The notes under the pieces are model-generated. The model was not told where the DNA came from, ran no database searches, and saw only the letters and a program-made list of their open reading frames with translations. A stretch of 64,000 nt of DNA, from assembly GCF_003851545.1 (NCBI RefSeq), contig NZ_BHVX01000009.1, positions 1 through 64,000 on the forward strand, read 5' to 3'. Below are positions 320-53,326 of the stretch, piece by piece. Position 1 is the stretch's first letter. Each line of letters starts with the position of its first letter. Source of the stretch: Ralstonia sp. SET104 (lineage in GTDB: Bacteria > Pseudomonadota > Gammaproteobacteria > Burkholderiales > Burkholderiaceae). The position numbers and the translations under genes are program-made.

Positions 320-1237
320 TCAGGTCGGATCGGCGTTTTCCAGCTCTTGCCGAATCGACTCGGTCAGCATGTCGATCAGCAAGCGAACGCGCTTGGGCAC
401 AAACCGCGCAGACGGCGTGACGAGATGGATCGGCTCTCCGCTGGTGGCGTAGTCGGGCAGCACGCGCACAAGGCGCGGCAACGGCGCATTGGCACGCGCC
501 ACAGCGCTCGCATACAGCGGCAACGGGCCGATGCCGGCGCCGGAAGCAATCAGCGTTTCCAGGTAGATGAGGCTGTCGGCGTTCAGGCGCGCACGCGTAG
601 CAACGGTCTTCAGACCATCGGGGCCGACGAGGCGCCATTGCGTTTCACCACGGCCGGTGCCGCGAAAATCAAGGCAGCAGTGGTCTGCCAGCCCTTGCAC
701 GGTCTCCGGCGCGCCGCGACGCTGCAGATAATCGGGCGAGGCGAACAAGCCGATACGCAACACGCCAAGCGACCGCGCCACGAGCGAACTGTCTGCCAGC
801 CGTCCGACGCGGACAGCGAGGTCGAAACCTTCCTGCACGAGATCGACATTGCGCGGCGTGAGCACCACGTCCAGATCGATCTCCGGGTACTGCTGCATGA
901 AGCGCGCCGCCACCGGTGCGACCAATAGGCGGCCAACGTCTTCGGAGGATGTGATCCGCACTTTGCCGCGCGGCAAGTCCTGCAACTCGCCCGCGCAGGT
1001 CGTGGCGCGCTCGATGTCCTCCAGTGCGTGCGACGCCACCTGGTACAGGCTCTGGCCCGCATCCGTCAGATGTAGCGTGCGCGTGGTGCGTTGTAACAGC
1101 CGTACGTTCAAATCCTGTTCAAGCGCGGCAATGCCCCGGCTGACGGAAGATTTGGGCAAATCCAGCCGCGTCGCCGCTGCTGTGAAGCTCCCCGCCTCAA
1201 CAACGCGCACAAACAGCGCCAGTTGGTTCAGATCCAC
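320..1237 (-). CDS. LysR-family transcriptional regulator
   Basis: A 305-residue LysR-type regulator. Residues 1-60 form the winged HTH (begins VDLNQLALFVRVVEAGSF, with KSSVSRGIAALE as recognition region), followed by a linker helix and the periplasmic-binding-protein-like effector domain. I chose the GTG at 1237 because a strong GGAGGAGG ribosome site lies just upstream on the minus strand; the longer open frame to 1366 runs through the intergenic region and has no such site. It is divergent from a pirin gene, a common pairing in Burkholderiaceae. The domain resembles the CrgA/aromatic-responsive LysR group, but the inducer cannot be read from sequence. Control of the adjacent pirin gene is inference from the divergent layout. 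Confidence 0.92.
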   Translation of the reverse strand: MDLNQLALFVRVVEAGSFTAAATRLDLPKSSVSRGIAALEQDLNVRLLQRTTRTLHLTDAGQSLYQVASHALEDIERATTCAGELQDLPRGKVRITSSEDVGRLLVAPVAARFMQQYPEIDLDVVLTPRNVDLVQEGFDLAVRVGRLADSSLVARSLGVLRIGLFASPDYLQRRGAPETVQGLADHCCLDFRGTGRGETQWRLVGPDGLKTVATRARLNADSLIYLETLIASGAGIGPLPLYASAVARANAPLPRLVRVLPDYATSGEPIHLVTPSARFVPKRVRLLIDMLTESIRQELENADPT

Positions 1238-1327
1238 GTGGTTTCCTCCTCCGATGGGTGTGCTTGCCGGCGCGCGTTCGCCATTGTCTCGCCGGGAGCA
1301 ACATTTTTTCCCACAATAACCGTCTAG

Positions 1328-1364
1328 TGCATAAGGGGCAATCACCCTACATTTGGGGTATGAC
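1328..1364. promoter_or_regulatory. Candidate LysR operator between lysR and pirin genes
   Basis: The divergent intergenic region holds an imperfect array of related half-sites (CATAAGGGG, CACCCTA, TTGGGGTATG), including an interrupted dyad of T-N11-A type (AGGG...CCCT, about 1333-1349). Position between a LysR gene and its divergent neighbour fits a LysR binding site. No footprint or conservation evidence is available here. Confidence 0.35.
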
Positions 1365-1389
1365 AAATCCCGAATTTCAGGAGAACCGC

Positions 1390-2295
1390 ATGGAAACCCT
1401 CGTGCAACCGCAAGTGCAGCAAGTGCAACGTGGCCGCGGCGTGGAGCGCATCGTCACTGGGCGCGCCACCTCGGACGGCGCGGGCGTGAAGCTCACGCGC
1501 GTGCTGACGAACAACCTGCAACGCCGGCTCGATCCGTTCCTGATGCTGGACGCGTTTCGCAGCGATGATCCGAACGACTACCTTGCCGGCTTTCCCGATC
1601 ACCCGCATCGCGGCTTCGAAACGGTGACGTACATGATCGCGGGCCGCATGCGCCACCGCGACAGCGCTGGCCATGAAGGCCTGCTGCAACACGGCGGCGT
1701 GCAGTGGATGACAGCCGGCAGCGGCGTCGTGCACTCCGAAATGCCGGAACAGGAAGATGGCGTCATGGAAGGCTTCCAGCTCTGGCTGAACCTGCCTGCC
1801 AGCGACAAGATGACGACGCCGTGGTACCGCGACATTCCGTCAAATGAGATTCCCGAGTTCACGACAGAAGACGGCGTGACCGTGCGCGTCATCGCCGGTG
1901 AATCGCGCGGCGTGCAGGGTGCAATGACACGCGAGGCGACGCAACCGCTGTATCTCGACATCACGCTGCCGGCAGGTGCGTCGTTTGCGCAGCCGTTGCC
2001 AACCGGGCACAACGCGTTCGTCTACGTGTTCCGCGGTAGCGCGCTGGTGGGCGATGCGCCGGCGCCGGGCAACGCCAGTCTGCAGCGCGTGGAAGACAAG
2101 CAGATGGCCATCCTGGCCAACACGGAAGGCAGCGATGGCGTGATCATTCGCGCGGACGATACTCAGGCCCGCGTCCTGGTGGTGGCGGGCAAGCCGCTGA
2201 ATGAGTCGATTGCGCAGTACGGCCCGTTTGTGATGAACACGCAGGAGGAAATCTTCCAGGCCGTGCGTGACTTTCAGGCTGGCAAGTTTGCCTAA
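1390..2295 (+). CDS. Pirin family protein (cupin, putative quercetin 2,3-dioxygenase-like)
   Basis: A 301-residue bicupin protein. The N-terminal cupin carries the pirin signature around residues 52-105: FPDHPHRGFETVTYMI supplies metal-ligand histidines, and HGGVQWMTAGSGVVHSEMPE supplies a further His and Glu. The C-terminal pirin domain follows (about residues 180-280). The ATG at 1390 is preceded by AGGAG; upstream in-frame Met codons lack a better site. Bacterial pirins bind iron and some act as quercetinases or redox-linked regulators; the substrate here is not predictable. The divergent LysR gene probably controls it. Confidence 0.9.
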   Translation: METLVQPQVQQVQRGRGVERIVTGRATSDGAGVKLTRVLTNNLQRRLDPFLMLDAFRSDDPNDYLAGFPDHPHRGFETVTYMIAGRMRHRDSAGHEGLLQHGGVQWMTAGSGVVHSEMPEQEDGVMEGFQLWLNLPASDKMTTPWYRDIPSNEIPEFTTEDGVTVRVIAGESRGVQGAMTREATQPLYLDITLPAGASFAQPLPTGHNAFVYVFRGSALVGDAPAPGNASLQRVEDKQMAILANTEGSDGVIIRADDTQARVLVVAGKPLNESIAQYGPFVMNTQEEIFQAVRDFQAGKFA

Positions 2296-2313
2296 AGCGT
2301 CAACGCAGTCCTA

Positions 2314-2351
2314 AAGAAAAACCGCCGCTCGGTTTCACCAGAGCGGCGGTT
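2314..2351 (-). terminator. Terminator overlapping the srkA stop codon
   Basis: An 11-bp perfect stem (AACCGCCGCTC at 2320-2330, GAGCGGCGGTT at 2341-2351) with a 10-nt loop is followed on the minus strand by a T-rich stretch. The loop contains the stop codon of the minus-strand kinase gene, so the last sense codons form one arm. The stem may also stop the convergent pirin transcript, although there is no U-run in that direction. Confidence 0.8.
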
Positions 2352-3369
2352 CGTCCAACAGCGCGATCTGCTCGCGCAATTCCAAAACCCGGTCCTGCCA
2401 GTAGCGTTGCGTGTTGAACCACGGAAACGCAGCAGGAAACGCCGGATCATTCCAACGACGCGCCAGCCACGCGCTGTAGTGCAGCAAGCGCAGCGTGCGT
2501 AACGCTTCCACCAGATACAGCTCGCGCGTATCGAATTCGCAGAAATCTTCATAGCCGGCCAGCAGGCTGGCGAGCTGCGTTTGCATCGACGCGCGATCGC
2601 CCGAGAGCAGCATCCACAAGTCCTGCACTGCCGGACCCGTGCGGCTGTCGTCAAAGTCGACGAAGTGTGGGCCCGCGCTGCGCAAGGGGTCGCCTTGCCT
2701 GGCGTCACTCTCTTCGATCCAGAGGACGTTGGAGGCGTGGCAATCGCCATGCAGGCGCAGCAGCGAAACACTGCCCGCGCGCTCGTAGCAGCGGCGCACG
2801 CCGTCGAGCGCGGCATCAGCCACGCTGCGCCAGGCCGGCAGCAAATCAGGCGGGATGAAATCGTGTTCAAGCAGCCAGTCACGCGACTGCACGCCGAAGG
2901 TATCGATGTCGAGTGTGGGCCGAGTCATGAACGGCCGCTGCGCGCCCACGGCATGAATGCGGCCAAGGAAACGGCCCATCCATTCCAGCGTGTCATCACG
3001 ATCAATGGCGGGCACGCGGCCGGCGCAGCGCGGGAAGACCGCGAAGTGCCAGCGCTCGAACGCGTGCAGTGTGTGGCCGTTGATTGCAAGCGGCGCGATC
3101 ACCGGAATCTCGGCAGCCGCAAGTTCTGCCGTAAAGGCGTGTTCCTCGACGATCTGCGCGTCGCTCCAGCGGCCGGGGCGGTAGAACTTGACGACCACCG
3201 GCGCGCTGTCTTCCACGCCAACCTGGTAGACGCGGTTCTCGTAGCTGTTGAGCGCGAACATGCGGCCATCCGGCATCAGCCCGACCTGCGCCAGCGCATC
3301 GAGGATGCTGTCGGGCGTCAGGCCATCGTAGGGCGCTTCAGCTAATGCGGGCCGGCCGTCGTCTTGCAT
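2335..3369 (-). CDS. srkA: Stress response kinase A (SrkA/YihE-type Ser/Thr kinase)
   Basis: A 344-residue kinase of the aminoglycoside-phosphotransferase/choline-kinase fold. It has the family N-terminus with LNSYENRVYQVG near residue 42, the catalytic loop LRLHGDCHASNVLW (about residue 207), and the metal-binding segment FVDFDDSRTGPAVQDLWMLL (about residue 236). E. coli SrkA (RdoA, 328 aa) protects against stress-induced cell death and envelope stress; length and motifs agree. It lies 5 bp downstream of rhlE on the same strand and could share its transcript. Its own terminator overlaps the stop codon. Confidence 0.9.
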   Translation of the reverse strand: MQDDGRPALAEAPYDGLTPDSILDALAQVGLMPDGRMFALNSYENRVYQVGVEDSAPVVVKFYRPGRWSDAQIVEEHAFTAELAAAEIPVIAPLAINGHTLHAFERWHFAVFPRCAGRVPAIDRDDTLEWMGRFLGRIHAVGAQRPFMTRPTLDIDTFGVQSRDWLLEHDFIPPDLLPAWRSVADAALDGVRRCYERAGSVSLLRLHGDCHASNVLWIEESDARQGDPLRSAGPHFVDFDDSRTGPAVQDLWMLLSGDRASMQTQLASLLAGYEDFCEFDTRELYLVEALRTLRLLHYSAWLARRWNDPAFPAAFPWFNTQRYWQDRVLELREQIALLDEPPLW

Positions 3370-3374
3370 GAACG

Positions 3375-5048
3375 TCAGGCTTTACGGCCGCCGAGCAGCG
3401 CAGCGGCCTTGGCGAACAGGCCGTTGAACGGTTGCTTGGCCGATTGTGCCGTCTTCTGGGCGGGCTGCGCGGATTGCGTGTTCGACGAACGACGTTGACC
3501 GCCCTGCCCGTTGCCCTGGGCCTGGCCCTGCCGCTGGCCGCGTCCGCGCGGTTGGGCGCCACCGTTGCCGCTGCCACCGCCGTTGCCCGCACCGTTGCCC
3601 GCACCGTTGCCTGCATTATTTCCATTCCGCGGCTTCGGTGCAGCCTGACCGTCGCGCTGGCCTTGTGCCTGGCGCTGGCGGTTGCCGCCATTGCGACCCT
3701 GGCTCTGGCCTTGCGTTTGACCGTTGCCATTGCCGCTCGACTCACGACGCGGTTCGCGCGGCTCACGTGGCGCACGCGGTTCGCGCGATGCCGCATTGCC
3801 GCTGGCTTGGCGCGGCTGTTGGTTGCGAGCGCCGCCCTGGCGCGGGCCACGCGCGTTGTTGCGTCCGTTCGGAATCGGCTCCGCCGCGATGGTCGGGTCG
3901 GGCTCGAAACCTTCCAGCACGGTGCGCGGCAGTTCGCGCTTGATCAAGCGCTCGATGTCGCGCAGCAGGCCGTGTTCATCCACGCAGACCAGCGAGATCG
4001 CCTCGCCCTGCGCACCTGCGCGGCCCGTGCGGCCGATGCGGTGCACGTAGTCTTCCGGCACGTTCGGCAAGTCGAAGTTGACCACGTGCGGCAGTTGGTC
4101 GATGTCGATACCACGTGCGGCGATGTCGGTGGCAACCAGCACGCGCAGCGTTCCGGCCTTGAATTCCGACAGCGCACGCGTGCGCGCCGATTGGCTCTTG
4201 TTACCGTGGATCGCCAGCGACGAGATACCGTCACGCGTGAGCTGCTCGGCCAGGCGGTTGGCGCCGTGCTTGGTGCGCGTGAACACCAGCACCTGGTGCC
4301 AGTCGTTATCGCGCACGAGCTTGGCGAGCAGTTCGCGCTTGCGCTCGCGGTCTACCGGGTAGATGCGCTGCTCAACCGTCTCGGCCGTGGTGTTGCGGCG
4401 CGCGACTTCAATCAGCGCCGGCTTGTCGAGCAGGCGGTCGGCCAGTTCACGGATGTCGTCCGAGAACGTGGCCGAGAACAGCAGGTTCTGGCGCTTGGCC
4501 GGCAGGATATTGAGGATCTTGCGGATGTCGTGGATGAAACCCATGTCGAGCATGCGATCGGCTTCGTCCAGCACCAGCAGCTCGATATGCGACAGGTCGA
4601 TGGTGCGTTGGCCCACATGGTCCAGCAGGCGGCCCGGCGTGGCCACCACGATATCGACACCGCGCTTGAGCGCATCGATCTGCGGGTTGATGCCAACGCC
4701 GCCGAACATCACCATCGACTTCAGCGGCAGGTATTTGCCATAGGCGCGCACGCTCTCTTCCACCTGCGCAGCGAGTTCACGCGTGGGGGTCAGCACCAGC
4801 GCGCGAATGGGGAAACGCATGCCTTGCGGCGTTTGCACCTTGTTCGGCTGCACGGCAGACAGGCGATGCAGCAGCGGCAGCGTGAAACCGGCGGTCTTGC
4901 CGGTGCCGGTCTGTGCACCGGCGAGCAGGTCACCGCCCTTGAGGATGGCGGGGATGGCCTGGCGTTGAATTGGGGTGGGTTCTGCGTAGCCGAGTTCGGC
5001 CACGGCACGTACCAGCTTGTCTGACAAGCCGAGTTCGGAAAACGACAT
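3375..5048 (-). CDS. rhlE: ATP-dependent RNA helicase RhlE (DEAD-box)
   Basis: A 557-residue DEAD-box helicase. The Q-motif ([10 protein letters not shown]), Walker [19 protein letters not shown] in [12 protein letters not shown], and the C-terminal [10 protein letters not shown] motif lie in order over the first 380 residues. The last 170 residues are a low-complexity basic tail rich in Gly, Asn, Gln and Arg, as in many beta- and gammaproteobacterial RhlE proteins. RhlE acts in ribosome assembly and RNA decay. The start at 5048 opens with [13 protein letters not shown], the usual family N-terminus; a 17-codon upstream extension has no family similarity. Confidence 0.95.
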
Positions 5049-18216: not shown

Positions 18217-18627
18217 ATGTGCACCCGACGCCAAGTCCTCACCCTAGCCTTTGCTGCCGTTGTGGCATCGGCGCCGCTGCTGTCCCATGCGCAAGTGCTG
18301 CGCAATATTCCGGCGACGGCCCCGGTAGCCCAGTTGACCGTCAATTCGGCCAACACCGGCACGCTGAGTACCGGCAGCACCGGCGTCGTTCGTATCCTGC
18401 TGTTGGGCTTTGGGAGCAGCAGCACCGATATCCGCTTTGCCCCGGGCGTGCGGATTCTGTCGCTGGATGGGCGTCTGCTGCCGACCGGTTCGGTGGTTGG
18501 CCAGACGTTCAAGGTGCGCTATCAGCTCGACCTGTATCAGCAGTTGCTGACAGCCTGGGTTGTCAGCGATGACGACTACAAGGCTGCGGTGGCGGCGCAA
18601 AGTCAGGCGCAAACGCAGTCCCAGTAG
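18217..18627 (+). CDS. Small secreted protein of unknown function
   Basis: A 136-residue protein that I do not recognise. Residues 1-24 form a signal peptide (hydrophobic core [15 protein letters not shown], cleavage near SHAQ). The mature part is predicted beta-rich, containing repeated Thr/Gly turns ([14 protein letters not shown]) and ending in a Gln-rich tail. A TACAAT -10-like box at 18145-18150 lies 66 bp upstream. It ends 52 bp before miaB and could be co-transcribed with it. Confidence 0.7.
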
Positions 18628-18679
18628 TCAGAACACCCCACGAAGCACGTGCCCCCAGGTCAACCACTGTGAACGGCAC

Positions 18680-20038
18680 ATGAAAAAAGTCTTCATCAAA
18701 ACCTACGGCTGCCAGATGAACGAGTACGACTCGGACAAGATGTCCGACGTGCTCAACGCGGCTGAAGGTCTCGTTCCCACCGACACGCCCGAAGATGCGG
18801 ACGTGATCCTCTTCAACACGTGCTCCGTGCGCGAGAAGGCGCAGGAGAAGGTGTTCTCCGAACTCGGTCGCGTGAAAGCGCTCAAGGCCCTCAAGCCGGA
18901 CCTCGTGGTTGGCGTTGGCGGCTGCGTGGCGAGCCAGGAAGGCGCGTCCATCGTGGCGCGCGCGCCTTACGTAGACGTCGTCTTCGGCCCGCAGACGCTG
19001 CACCGCCTGCCGGACCTGATCGCAGCGCGCCGCCGCACGGGCCGCTCGCAGGTCGACGTGTCCTTCCCCGAGATCGAAAAGTTCGACCACCTGCCGCCCG
19101 CGCGTGTGGATGGCGCGAGCGCCTTCGTGTCGATCATGGAAGGCTGCTCAAAGTACTGCAGCTACTGCGTCGTGCCCTACACGCGCGGCGAAGAGGTCTC
19201 GCGCCCGTTTGATGACGTGCTGGCCGAAGTGGCTGGTCTGGCCGAACAGGGCGTGCGTGAAGTCACGCTGCTCGGTCAGAACGTGAATGCCTACATTGGC
19301 AAGATGGGCGACACCAGCGAGCGCGCGGACTTCGCGCTGCTGCTGGAGTACGTGGCTGAGATTCCGGGCATCGAGCGCATTCGCTATACGACCAGCCACC
19401 CGAAGGAATTCTCCTCGCGCCTGATCGAGGCGTATGCCACCAACCCGAAGCTGGTCGACCACCTGCACCTGCCCGTGCAGCACGGCTCCGACCGCATCCT
19501 GATGGCGATGAAGCGCGGCTACACGGTGCTCGAATACAAGAGCAGCATCCGAAAGCTGCGTGCGATCCGGCCGAACATCTCGATCGCCACCGACTTCATC
19601 GTCGGCTTTCCAGGCGAGACCGATGCGGACTTCGCCAAGACGATGGACCTGATCCACGAGATCGGCTACGACACCTCGTTCAGCTTCATCTACAGCCCGC
19701 GCCCCGGCACGCCGGCGGCCAACCTGCACGACGATACGCCGCAGGCTGTCAAGCTCGAACGCCTGAAACATTTGCAAGCGACCATCGAAGCGAACGTCGC
19801 GCGCATCAGTCAAGGCATGGTCGGCAGCGTGCAGCGCATCCTGGTCGAAGGCCCGTCGCGCAAAGACCCGACCGAGCTGCACGGCCGCACCGAGAACAAC
19901 CGCGTGGTCAACTTCGCGCTGCCCGACCTGCCACAGGCACGCCGCGATCAATTGATCGGCCAGATGCTGGACGTGCGCATCGTGCATGCCTTCCCGCACT
20001 CGTTGCGCGGTGAAGTTGCGGTCGGCACAACACACTGA
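18680..20038 (+). CDS. miaB: tRNA-2-methylthio-N6-dimethylallyladenosine synthase MiaB
   Basis: A 452-residue radical-SAM methylthiotransferase modifying A37 of tRNAs. The auxiliary cluster cysteines are Cys11, Cys48 and Cys82. The radical-SAM CxxxCxxC motif is Cys156, Cys160 and Cys163 in [19 protein letters not shown]-terminal TRAM domain occupies about residues 375-445. It heads the miaB-ybeZ-ybeY-corC-lnt cluster. The ATG at 18680 gives the standard [14 protein letters not shown] start. Confidence 0.97.
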
Positions 20039-22252: not shown

Positions 22253-23380
<1,128 letters not shown>

Positions 23381-50025: not shown

Positions 50026-51102
50026 ATGATCGAAACCGACAAGCTCGCCGCCAAGGCCGTCTCTGCTGAACGCCTGATTTCAGCCTCCCCCGCCTCCCCC
50101 AACGAGGAGGCGTTCGAGCGCGCACTGCGCCCCAAGCTGCTTGACGAATATGTCGGCCAGGAAAAGGTGCGCGGCCAGCTCGACATCTTCATGACGGCGG
50201 CCAAGAACCGCAGCGAAGCGCTGGACCACGTACTGCTGTTCGGCCCGCCGGGCCTGGGCAAGACAACGCTGGCGCACATCATTGCGCGCGAGATGGGCGT
50301 CAACCTGCGCCAGACCTCCGGCCCCGTGCTGGAGCGCCCCGGCGATCTGGCGGCGCTGCTCACCAACCTTGAAGCCAACGACGTTCTCTTCATCGACGAG
50401 ATCCACCGGCTCTCGCCCGTGGTGGAGGAAATCCTGTACCCGGCGCTGGAGGACTACCAGATCGACATCATGATCGGCGAGGGCCCGGCGGCGCGCTCGG
50501 TCAAGCTCGATCTGCAGCCGTTCACGCTGGTAGGGGCCACCACGCGCGCCGGCATGCTGACCAACCCGCTGCGCGACCGCTTCGGCATCGTCGCGCGGCT
50601 GGAGTTCTACACGCCGGCTGAGCTGGCGAAGATCGTCAAGCGTTCGGCCGGTCTGCTCAATGCACACATTGTGGACGCGGGCGCGCTGGAAATCGCCAAG
50701 CGCTCGCGCGGCACACCCCGTATCGCCAACCGCCTGCTGCGCCGCGTGCGTGACTTTGCCGAAGTGAAAGCCGATGGCGTCATCACCCGCGAGGTGGCCG
50801 ACGCCGCGCTGGCCATGCTCGACGTGGATGCCGTCGGCTTCGACCTGATGGATCGCAAGCTGCTCGAAGCGATCCTGCACAAGTTCAACGGCGGGCCGGT
50901 CGGCGTTGACAACCTGGCCGCCGCCATTGGCGAAGAGCGCGACACGATTGAAGACGTGCTCGAGCCGTACCTGATCCAGCAGGGCTACCTGCAACGCACG
51001 CCGCGCGGGCGCGTGGCCACGGCCTCGGCGTACCAGCACTTCGGGCTGGGCGCCCCCAAGAGCGGGCCTGTGCGTGAGCTCTGGGACGACAACAACAACT
51101 AA
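50026..51102 (+). CDS. ruvB: Holliday junction helicase motor RuvB
   Basis: A 358-residue AAA+ ATPase. Walker A GPPGLGKT is at residues 73-80 and the Walker B block is [14 protein letters not shown]. Sensor and arginine-finger regions ([18 protein letters not shown]) and the C-terminal winged helix ([20 protein letters not shown]) follow. TAAAAT in GCGGTAAAATGG (49974-49979) is a possible -10 box, 47 bp before the start. Confidence 0.97.
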
Positions 51103-51124
51103 CACCCCACCCACCTCACCCGCC

Positions 51125-51835
51125 ATGACTGCCCCCAGTCCTCAGCGCAACTTCCGCTACTACGACTTCGTCATGGCCGCCTTCGTCACGGTGCTGCTGT
51201 GCTCGAACCTGATCGGCGCAGCCAAGGCGGCGCAGATCACGCTGCCGATTCTCGGGCCGGTCACGTTTGGCGCGGGCGTGCTGTTCTTCCCCATCTCGTA
51301 CATCTTTGGCGACATCCTCACCGAGGTGTACGGCTACGGGCGCGACCGCCGCGTGGTGTGGGCCGGCTTTGCCGCGCTGATCTTCGCGTCGTTCATGTCG
51401 CTGGTGGTGTTGGCGCTGCCGGTGGCGCCGTTCATGGCCGACTATCAGAAGAGCCTGAACGACGTGTTCGGCAACACGCCGCGCATCGTCGCCGGGTCGC
51501 TCATCGCGTTCTGGTGCGGCAGCTTCGCCAACAGCTACACGCTGGCGAAGATGAAGATCTACACGGAAGGGAAATGGCTGTGGACGCGCATTGTCGGCTC
51601 CACGGTGGTGGGCGAGGCGGTGGATTCGTCGCTGTTCTACGTGATCGCCTTCTACGGCATCTGGCCGCACGAACAGGTGCTGCGCGTGGCCATCGCGCAA
51701 TACATCCTCAAGACCGGCTGGGAGATCCTGGCAACGCCGCTCACCTACCGCGTCGTCGCCTTCCTCAAGCGCGCCGAAAACGAAGACTACTACGACCGCG
51801 ACACCGACTTCACGCCGTTCCGGCTGAAGGTGTAG
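51125..51835 (+). CDS. yhhQ: Queuosine precursor transporter (YhhQ family)
   Basis: A 236-residue membrane protein with about six helices (FVMAAFVTVLLCSNLIGAAK, VLFFPISYIFGDILTEVYGYG, ALIFASFMSLVVLAL, LFYVIAFYGIW and others). The VxxSNLI start and PxxYxxGDxLTEVYGY block are the YhhQ/QueT signature; E. coli YhhQ imports preQ0/preQ1. The start at 51125 lies 22 nt after ruvB, leaving no room for a preQ1 riboswitch. The downstream region is the phased repeat array. Confidence 0.9.
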   Translation: MTAPSPQRNFRYYDFVMAAFVTVLLCSNLIGAAKAAQITLPILGPVTFGAGVLFFPISYIFGDILTEVYGYGRDRRVVWAGFAALIFASFMSLVVLALPVAPFMADYQKSLNDVFGNTPRIVAGSLIAFWCGSFANSYTLAKMKIYTEGKWLWTRIVGSTVVGEAVDSSLFYVIAFYGIWPHEQVLRVAIAQYILKTGWEILATPLTYRVVAFLKRAENEDYYDRDTDFTPFRLKV

Positions 51836-51843
51836 CGCGTGGC

Positions 51844-52119
51844 GTTCCAGACTTCACGTTTGAGGTTCTGAACTCGGCGTGGTCGCGTTCCGGACCCCAC
51901 TGTTGAGGTTCGCAACCCCACATTCGGTGTTTCCGAACGCCATGCTCAAGGTTCAGAACGCGATGTTTGAAGTGCTGAACTCGGAGGTGTTGCGTTCAGA
52001 ACAACATGTTCCGAGTTCCGGACGCGGCGTTCGGGGTTCTGCACGCCGCAGTTGAGGTTCCGAACCCGACGCTTGCGGTTCCACACCCCGCGTACCGGGT
52101 TCCAAACCCAGCCAGCGGC
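51844..52119. repeat. 13-unit phased array of GTTCNGAAC-type palindromes, 21-22 bp period
   Basis: A 9-bp core of type GTTCNGAAC recurs with starts at 51844, 51865, 51887, 51908, 51930, 51951, 51972, 51994, 52015, 52036, 52057, 52078 and 52099. Steps are 21 bp nine times and 22 bp three times, mean 21.25 bp, i.e. two turns of B-DNA. Units 2, 6, 8 and 11 match the palindrome exactly; others differ by one to three bases. Spacers loosely share a GTTGAG or TTTGAG ending. The array fills the 290-bp gap between convergent yhhQ and the phosphatase gene. Short open frames through it give seven-residue repeats, but the 22-bp steps break the frame. Confidence 0.9.
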
Positions 52120-52125
52120 CCAGCG

Positions 52126-52806
52126 CTAGGGCACGCGGCGGTCCACCTCGTCGAGCACCAGCAAATCGAGGTGCGCGACATCGCCCCACTGCACCACGGT
52201 CAGTTGATGACCATCCGACGAAAGCCGATTGATGCTGGCGTTGCGCAATTCATGCTGACGCGGCTCGGCAAGCGTCATGGCGTTGGCGTGGCGATACAGG
52301 CAATCGAGCACGCCGCCGTGGCTCACCAGCGCGATGCGCTCGCCGGGGTGGCGGCGGATCAGGCGCAGGGCGGTTTGCACCGCGCGCGCATGGAATTCAG
52401 TGAGCGTTTCGCCGCCGGGTGGAGCGAACTCGGGCACACGGTTCTGCCACGCATCGAAGTCGGCCGGATGCTGCGCGGCGACTTCGGCGTAGGTCAGGCC
52501 TTCGAACTGGCCGTAGCAGCGCTCGCGCAGGCCGGCGTCATCGCGCACCGTGGCGCCAACTTCGTCCGCCAGCGCCTGCGCGGTCTGCTTCGCACGCGAC
52601 AGGTCGCTCGCATAGACGGCGTCAAACCGTTCGCGTGCAAGCGCGCGGCCCAGTTGCGTGGCTTGTTCCAGCCCCTGCGTATTCAGCGGCACGTCGAGCT
52701 GACCTTGCAGGCGGCGTTCGCGGTTCCAATCGGTCTCGCCGTGGCGCACGAGCACGATGTGGGTGATCTGCGGCATCGGCATGGGAATGGCGGCGGCGCG
52801 TGGCAT
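52126..52806 (-). CDS. Histidine phosphatase family protein (phosphoglycerate-mutase-like)
   Basis: A 226-residue branch 1 histidine phosphatase. The nucleophile motif LVRHGETDWNRERRLQGQ (His near residue 20) and second His in LVSHGGVLDCLYRHA are intact, with the conserved Glu/Arg region GLRERCYGQFEGLTY. Could be a cofactor-independent sugar or nucleotide phosphatase such as GpmB or CobC; the substrate is not predictable. The start at 52806 lies 20 nt after the dtd stop, so it is the last gene of a tyrS-dtd-phosphatase unit; Met9 and Met11 are alternatives. Confidence 0.9.
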   Translation of the reverse strand: MPRAAAIPMPMPQITHIVLVRHGETDWNRERRLQGQLDVPLNTQGLEQATQLGRALARERFDAVYASDLSRAKQTAQALADEVGATVRDDAGLRERCYGQFEGLTYAEVAAQHPADFDAWQNRVPEFAPPGGETLTEFHARAVQTALRLIRRHPGERIALVSHGGVLDCLYRHANAMTLAEPRQHELRNASINRLSSDGHQLTVVQWGDVAHLDLLVLDEVDRRVP

Positions 52807-52825
52807 CACAGGGCTCTCAAACGTG

Positions 52826-53326
52826 TCAGACAGATTTGGCTGTTTCCGAAGCGGTGGCACGCGCAACTTGCGGCGCCACCTGCAACCAGAACGTGACCGG
52901 GCCATCGTTGACGAGCGACACTTTCATATCCGCGCCGAACTCGCCTGTGGCGACGATGGGGTGCTGCGCGCGAGCCCGCGCCACGAAATGCTCATACAGG
53001 CGGCGGCCGTCTTCCGGGGCAGCCGCAGGCGTGAAGCTCGGGCGCGTGCCGGATTTGGTATCCGCCGCCAGCGTGAACTGCGACACGACCAGCAAGCCAC
53101 CGGCCTGCCCGTTGCCGTCGATGTTGCGCACCGGCAGGTTCATCTTGCCCTGCGCGTCGGAGAACACCCGGTAGTTCAGCAGCTTTTCCAGCAAGCGATC
53201 GGCCTCGGCAGCACTGTCACCGCGTTCGGCGCACACGAGCGCGAGCAGACCCGGGCCGATCTCGCCGACCACACGGCCGTCGACACGCACAGCCGCCTGC
53301 GAGACGCGCTGGATCAGTCCAATCAC
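52826..53326 (-). CDS. dtd: D-aminoacyl-tRNA deacylase
   Basis: A 166-residue Dtd, freeing tRNAs charged with D-amino acids or glycine. Active-site motifs [17 protein letters not shown] and [12 protein letters not shown] are present. The C-terminus extends about 15 residues beyond E. coli Dtd. It overlaps the tyrS stop as ATGA, so it is coupled to the tyrosyl-tRNA synthetase, whose mischarging with D-Tyr it can correct. Confidence 0.95.

Follow-up and report, generated by a model that had tools for sequence, protein, structure and literature searches.

Thirteen palindromes between two convergent genes

What is a row of thirteen short palindromes doing in the gap between two convergent genes of Ralstonia, and is it a structure kept by selection or the remains of a decaying repeat? 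The row lies in a stretch of 64,000 nucleotides, here called the window, and an earlier note made from its letters described 13 cores recurring every 21 or 22 bp, with a mean of 21.25 bp. A scan for cores within 2 mismatches of GTTCNGAAC, together with shuffles, bears this description out: 13 such cores span positions 51844-52107, 4 of them exact, 7 with one mismatch and 2 with two, in nine steps of 21 bp and three of 22 bp. The features of the locus are as follows.

51125..51835, + strand: flanking gene of the Vut_1 family (yhhQ-type transporter; PF02592, E 4.2e-51), 3' end towards the array
51844..52107, no strand: array of 13 GTTCNGAAC cores, steps 21,22,21,22,21,21,22,21,21,21,21,21
51844..51852, no strand: core 1, GTTCCAGAC, 2 mismatches
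51865..51873, no strand: core 2, GTTCTGAAC, exact
51887..51895, no strand: core 3, GTTCCGGAC
51908..51916, no strand: core 4, GTTCGCAAC
51930..51938, no strand: core 5, TTTCCGAAC
51951..51959, no strand: core 6, GTTCAGAAC, exact
51972..51980, no strand: core 7, GTGCTGAAC
51994..52002, no strand: core 8, GTTCAGAAC, exact; unmatched in the orthologous array of genome G004 by our unit matching
52015..52023, no strand: core 9, GTTCCGGAC
52036..52044, no strand: core 10, GTTCTGCAC
52057..52065, no strand: core 11, GTTCCGAAC, exact
52078..52086, no strand: core 12, GTTCCACAC, 2 mismatches
52099..52107, no strand: core 13, GTTCCAAAC
52126..52905, - strand: flanking histidine phosphatase gene (His_Phos_1; PF00300, E 1.5e-67), 3' end towards the array

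The array starts 8 bp past the Vut_1 stop and ends 18 bp short of the stop of the convergent histidine phosphatase gene, and a search for terminators at 51000-53000 gives none above chance (2 found, for a mean of 2.1 in shuffles): the array does fill its gap with no other terminator, as had been claimed. When the 293-bp gap is shuffled 3000 times with its dinucleotides preserved, no chain is longer than 3 units, compared with the 13 of the real sequence. When all 256 possible 4-bp arms are scanned in the window, GTTC alone yields a chain of 13 units, the next longest being 7 (arm GTGC), and the rest of the 64 kb contains no core chain of more than 2 units. Tandem Repeats Finder, at its default score, leaves the array out of its output because the units are too diverged to reach the threshold. 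As for the statement that all centres face the same side of the helix, it holds exactly at 10.6 bp per turn; at 10.5 bp, the centres drift by 3 bp over the 12 steps.

Two candidates can be set aside at once. A coding repeat is ruled out by the 22-bp steps, which shift the reading frame, as had already been argued against a peptide repeat, and by the location of the array outside both genes. CRISPR repeats are identical and about 23-47 bp long; here the unit is a 9-bp core followed by a spacer of 12-13 bp, and no cas family is found among the 30 proteins scanned. Elsewhere in the window, positions 22865-23200 hold clustered tandem repeats of 6 and 18 bp (CCGAGC, CCGACT and GTGCACCCGCCACACCCG types), probably coding low-complexity sequence.

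A family of arrays in the genus

A profile scan for further arrays, suggested in the earlier note, finds about seven more clear ones in the genome of the window (4.80 Mb, 58 contigs). With the sequence model, arrays lie near C2:351.0k, C3:19.4k, C5:62.2k, C5:129.3k, C5:155.0k, C8:146.5k, C9:52.0k (the window array) and C23:24.3k, and weak short ones at C1:518.7k and C16:61.5k. The strict two-unit pattern matches eight times in this genome, its reversed version never. A different short repeat, of GCAGAATCTGGTTCG/GCAGAAGCGGGTACG type with a spacing of about 22 bp and distinct from the GTTCNGAAC arrays, is seen at G000:C1:163314-163540 (in L197).

The model, R1, has matches in all 16 Ralstonia genomes, and the three-unit core pattern is present in 15 of them, with 0 for the reversed control. 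Among other genomes sampled from the family, 0 of 283 contain that pattern. In G006, where the model gives one weak match only, the array family is nearly lost, a two-unit remnant persisting at the rhodanese locus (L335); its closest relative, G001, keeps arrays, with 35 model matches. The prmB-type locus was also compared in 25 genomes from 11 other genera: the best lag-21 score is 0.50, versus 0.52-0.67 for the Ralstonia arrays, a comparison that covers this one locus and that weak arrays could escape.

A blind scan for periods finds nothing at lag 20-21 in contig C1 of the window's genome (400 kb covered); over the same length of G010, it recovers the array of the yhhQ gap, one array near 618k, one coding repeat and one weaker peak. 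Viral sequences with the pattern amount to 3 stretches of 3-4 units only. The window array has no match among plasmids, and the rhodanese-locus query has plasmid matches along roughly one third of it, at its gene end among the matches listed. A scan of named genomes gives at least 118 stretches, with 80 loci listed, also in Nostocaceae, Bacteroidales, Treponema, Planctomycetes, Saccharothrix and others. Most of the inspected ones are near-homogeneous repeats of 21 or 22 bp; L056, L058, L067, L117 and L133 in Nostocaceae and L060, L083, L107 and L112 in Treponema, Bacteroidales and Planctomycetes are mostly of 21 bp and contain GTTCNGAAC. We tentatively treat the repeats of other phyla as separate or convergent. 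In the open-access papers searched (subscription journals being outside this scope), the exact core string is absent, and none of the papers listed has a title and abstract that describe these arrays.

Units, spacers and steps

The consensus of the unit is GTTCNGAACNYCANNNNTGRN. Among 242 units of chosen arrays, 204 are 21 bp long and 35 are 22 bp long, and in a set of 16 arrays the pitch ranges from 21.07 to 21.33 bp. The genus-wide spacer, YYCANNNNTGRR, is a weaker dyad of its own, which makes about one dyad per 10.5 bp. A length of exactly 13 units is found in 20 of 39 distinct arrays, when each ortholog counts as an array of its own and a core may have as many as 4 mismatches; the others have from 4 to 19. 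Six loci have arrays of this length: yhhQ, prmB-type, B/E, rhodanese, urease and SDR.

No spacer sequence is common to different loci, in nine arrays compared in any register or orientation. As a positive control, an ortholog pair at the rhodanese locus is recognised by the register comparison, with 9.67 of 12 positions versus about 5. Even at the same locus, arrays of distant species (the window's genome and G005 at the prmB-type locus; B and E) have no spacer similarity, so either their spacers are saturated or the arrays have been replaced.

The 22-bp steps are placed more evenly than by chance. With one array at each of 10 loci, the summed RMS is 3.10, versus 3.65 ± 0.24 in permutations (p 0.0055). 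Orthologs within a locus are not independent; averaged per locus over all listed arrays, the value is 3.15 versus 3.69 ± 0.18, and 0 of 4000 permutations are as low. For the window locus alone the evenness is not significant (0.31). Both for this test and for the count of gene contexts below, loci were merged by comparison of their flanks (MCP four times; urease, lctP and B/E). Before this merging, the polarity of the units agrees with the adjacent gene at the loci of 8 arrays and disagrees at 5.

Constraint on the cores

The earlier note held that the cores are better kept than the spacers, and alignments anchored on the adjacent gene confirm it at two loci. At the prmB-type locus (6 genomes), divergence is 6.7% in the gene, 5.4% in the core arms, 16.4% in the spacers and 30.1% downstream, with no alignment gaps in the array and 11.5% downstream. 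At the rhodanese locus (8 genomes, including G007, G001 and G014), the corresponding values are 8.1%, 6.2%, 14.0% and 9.7%, with gaps of 3.8% in the array and 4.4% downstream. These alignments took the alignable arrays, from 6 and 8 of the 16 genomes; the 10 and 8 genomes omitted have an array that is missing, of another core, unreadable or too diverged.

This analysis repeats on arrays fetched by the adjacent gene an earlier one whose set had been fetched by core, and which consequently did not include arrays with other step patterns. That first set comprised 13 ortholog arrays from three loci. Its divergence is 5.1% over 2288 arm sites, compared with 14-17% in the spacers; positions G1 and C9 of the core have 0 differences in 21-bp units, and all 22 pairs agree in their steps. 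Conservation of the spacing, a check that had been proposed, is thus seen in all chosen pairs; G007, G001 and G014 differ, and so do the window array and its ortholog in G004. Between these last two, 8 of 88 arm sites and 35 of 120 spacer sites differ over 11 matched units; each array has 13 units, some of which, according to the unit matching, are missing from the other. As judged from these comparisons, the core arms are under constraint and the pitch is kept.

Gene ends and a second repeat

Twelve loci could be classified by their gene context, using a crude codon-usage gene caller and Pfam, with homologous-flank arrays merged: 6 are convergent (yhhQ, prmB-type, SDR, MCP, TadE, DHDPS), 6 are co-directional (rhodanese, urease, glg, ANTAR, lactate-permease, C8:146k) and none is divergent. 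Here prmB-type and glgX-type are our own labels, the families coming from Pfam; several further loci, including the B/E, G009 and G013 arrays, stand outside these twelve. The convergent setting described for the window is therefore correct there and is not a general rule. As background, a 400-kb portion of the window's genome has 13 convergent, 59 co-directional and 21 divergent gaps of 150-1500 bp. Avoidance of divergent gaps, at 0 of 12, is suggestive rather than strong; the excess of convergent ones, half compared with 14% in the background, is stronger. One array of the window's genome lies between ureC and ureE, inside the urease operon; this speaks against a strong terminator.

Near many arrays, at distances of about 15-500 bp, there is another dispersed repeat, about 230 bp long, which one species or more has at each of the prmB-type, urease, SDR, glg, DHDPS and MCP loci; at the glg locus, inverted copies stand on both sides of the array in G005, G015 and G010. 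Copies are at L300:4605-4834 (G005) and in L303, L304, L305, L295, L042, L285, L047, L110, L279, L203 and L209. In the window's genome it has 4 matches, two of them fragments, in ten array contexts of about 8 kb, versus 4 in 400 kb of C1. The repeat is highly self-complementary (z -7.1), and no Rfam family matches it above threshold. It is missing from the window, rhodanese and lctP loci. The 230-bp repeat is thus dispensable for an array, although the two kinds of palindromic repeat cluster in the same gaps.

Gain, loss and exchange of arrays

The gap between the yhhQ-type and phosphatase genes, which the earlier note proposed to align across related genomes, gives a divided answer: 13 of the 16 Ralstonia genomes have no array there, the window array has an ortholog in G004, and in G010 the gap holds a 21-bp array of a different core, CTCTNTGAG. 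The array is therefore dispensable at this locus, and the outcome goes part of the way towards the refutation set out in the earlier note. In G003 and G005, both array-free, a small palindrome GCGTTCAGGGAACGC is found at the junction.

The prmB-type locus has an array in 9 of 16 genomes, a 21-bp array of another core in G013, and none in 6. The G013 array (L322, about 2158-2570) has a core of CGCAAAGC/AGCTCC type and takes the place, downstream of the prmB-type gene, that GTTCNGAAC arrays have in other species. In the glgB/glgX-type gap, G010 has an array of CTCTNTGAG type and G005 and G015 have GTTCNGAAC arrays, the flanks proving that the locus is the same. Gaps holding a 21-bp array of another core are thus three, two loci in G010 and one in G013.

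The rhodanese locus has an array of 8-13 units in 13 of 15 readable genomes, with the first core 12-13 nt past the stop. The exceptions are G006, with two units, and G002, with none by core search; in G013 the contig is cut and the locus unreadable. The steps change in G007, which has another pattern, and in G001 and G014, which have 12 units; G005, G003, G008 and G009 have 13 units at two loci, and the range is 8-13 across the genus. On a three-gene tree, the rhodanese array occurs in both deep branches and the window array in one only, and G006 is sister to G001. In the window's genome, a Tn3-family transposase gene (Pfam DDE_Tnp_Tn3; L297, G000:C23:20200-28500, at 730-3663) lies 338 bp from the rhodanese-locus array.

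A further array, in L209 (G010:C1:600001-620000) at about 18340-18900, alternates GAGCTC-type cores with GAGCTTTTTTCTC units in doublets of 42 bp. It has a possible hairpin and T-run, resembling tandem intrinsic terminators. From our reading of the adjacent sequence, it may be at the ANTAR-gene locus, where the array of G005 (L307:4013-4294) alternates too.

What the arrays may do

On balance, we lean towards reading the window array as one copy of a dispersed, genus-wide family of helically phased operator arrays, a platform for a putative dimeric protein at gene ends. A homodimeric DNA-binding protein would recognise each GTTCNGAAC core. With cores that recur every two turns of about 10.6 bp each, the bound dimers would be aligned on one face of the helix; over some 25 turns, or about 263 bp with often 12-14 sites, they could polymerise or act co-operatively. 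A second, weaker contact may be made at the spacer dyad, which lies one turn from the core. Half-sites only 5 bp apart would suit a compact dimer, for example of the ribbon-helix-helix kind, better than a wide helix-turn-helix dimer. Because the strip is located at gene ends, just downstream of stops and between convergent genes or co-directional cistrons, it would most likely act as a local barrier or anchor there: a stop to read-through, a block on the spread of supercoils and a nucleoid tether are the candidate actions.

The arrays have the two traits of a phased operator array, constrained palindromic sites and a constant helical pitch, and such compact palindromes would fit a co-operative homodimeric protein. 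The earlier note had listed a platform for a cooperatively binding protein among its ideas: the constrained cores, the largely kept geometry and the even 22-bp steps speak for it, but no protein has been found. Other observations go against it. A single sequence-specific protein does not explain the arrays of other cores in the same gap; a fixed architecture is at odds with unit numbers of 4-19 and with step patterns that change between species; the near-loss in G006, the lack of an array at the window's locus in 13 of 16 genomes, a unit polarity that does not track the adjacent gene and an excess of kept pairing in one spacer register, described below, also weigh against a platform, and the constraint was measured on alignable arrays only.

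A dispersed, selected and phased family in a whole genus would imply a DNA-binding system that annotation has missed, since repeat finders miss arrays of such divergence and the protein would be one without a known site. With these arrays, one could also test whether protein filaments mark the ends of bacterial genes; the near-loss in G006 gives a genetic route to the putative protein, and the different cores at one locus would make it possible to tell selection on geometry apart from selection on sequence.

A possible, if doubtful, alternative puts architecture first: about 13 phased dyads whose geometry is kept and whose core can be swapped per locus (GTTCNGAAC, CTCTNTGAG or CAAAGC type) would be read by paralogous dimeric proteins of different specificity, building nucleoprotein rods of about 25 turns that act as gene-end insulators.

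The arrays could instead act as RNA, as 3' elements like REP and BIME whose tandem transcript hairpins terminate, stabilise or process mRNA, which we regard as unlikely. Sites at gene ends and between cistrons, including the ureC-ureE and glgB-glgX-type gaps, would suit such a role, although a strong terminator within the urease operon would do harm, and an even placement of helical steps would be meaningless for RNA. On either strand, the fold of the array is better than those of dinucleotide shuffles (z -3.0 and -3.1), and shuffling letters within spacers worsens it (z -0.7 to -5.9), but intact spacers put in another order fold similarly (z -2.4 to 1.8). T-runs follow possible hairpins in units of one G010 array; the array itself has no Rfam match.

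In a shifted register (pairs 10-20, 11-19, 12-18, 13-17), 10 of 20 double changes pair, in 5 distinct events, versus 2.7 ± 2.0 in permutations; however, this register was chosen post hoc from seven and has no excess across units (it is not in the ten best pairs, whose best z is 1.9), and we consider the excess weak, though sufficient to keep RNA pairing in play. In the symmetric spacer register, orthologs have 2 of 14 double changes that pair (3.3 in permutations) and 2 compensatory of 233 changed, and 200 distinct 21-bp units have no covariation (z -2.9 to 2.3). Between GAAC and the next GTTC, orthologs have 66 one-sided changes and 0 compensatory ones. As these outcomes are for the most part negative, we set the RNA reading aside, but as a first choice only.

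Sites of chromosome organisation or segregation, comparable to parS, matS or a plasmid centromere and bound by a replicon-wide factor, seem improbable. Iterated, phased sites are typical of partition complexes, the window's genome has about eight clear arrays on several contigs, and arrays are on both large contigs of the two- or three-contig genomes G008, G009 and G015. However, a lean to gene ends is not expected of such sites, and the near-complete loss in G006 and the swaps of core type at single loci also count against them.

Still less probable is the neutral minisatellite that the earlier note had also considered, in which 21-bp duplications of palindromic seeds would diverge without selection. 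Patchy presence at the window locus, units gained and lost (between the window and G004, and at the rhodanese locus) and the palindrome at the junction of array-free G003 and G005 all speak for it. However, the family is genus-wide, spacers vary from unit to unit where a minisatellite or VNTR would have homogeneous units, core arms change more slowly than the neighbouring coding sequence, the 22-bp steps are even, and one core and one pitch recur at independent loci without common spacers.

A small mobile element, alone or in a composite, spreading the array as a unit could produce the recurrent size of 13 units, the occupied and empty gaps, and the 230-bp repeat near arrays at several loci, with its inverted copies around the glg array of three species, but it is just as improbable: arrays of different loci have no sequence in common in any register or orientation, as copies of such an element, with its terminal inverted repeats, would; the 230-bp repeat is missing at three loci, no target duplication is seen by eye at the yhhQ gap, and both deep branches of the genus have the rhodanese array.

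Comparison with known systems

Seen by analogy, the systems that appear nearest are REP elements and BIMEs for distribution and, for mechanism, iteron and centromere arrays and the operators of KfrA and BldC. REP elements are located at the 3' ends of genes. The arrays share this extragenic 3'-end location, with 0 of 12 divergent loci by crude gene calls. REP elements (PU) and BIMEs are described as dispersed extragenic palindromes, some regularly spaced, to which proteins bind and for which roles in supercoiling, termination and mRNA stability are suspected. However, REP units are 20-40 bp long, mostly tagged by GTAG or CGTC, alternating in orientation in BIMEs and usually present in more than 100 copies, whereas the Ralstonia arrays have an untagged odd palindrome of 9 bp within GTTCNGAACNYCANNNNTGRN, a pitch of two turns, and about eight clear arrays.

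Iterons and centromere arrays of the parC/parS type are protein-binding repeats about two turns apart that form co-operative complexes. They occupy a single locus per plasmid, with near-identical repeats and a rep or par gene next door; in contrast, the Ralstonia arrays have many loci per genome and diverged units, and no rep or par gene is among the flanking proteins scanned.

Tandem repeats are known in the same genus as the minisatellites of MLVA/VNTR typing: in the portion of the source consulted, their units are 6-15 bp long and selected for variable copy number, and none of those given is the array unit (PMC12366337). Short repeats bound by multimerising proteins, as the putative protein may be, are described in the available parts of the reports on KfrA (PMC7783346) and on the direct repeats of BldC (PMC5859096). 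KfrA of RA3 is reported there to form long filaments with DNA carrying its sites (PMC7783346). Its operator, in the same excerpt, consists of five 9-nt direct repeats at its own promoter (PMC7783346), whereas the Ralstonia arrays are palindromic, phased at 21 bp and placed at gene ends.
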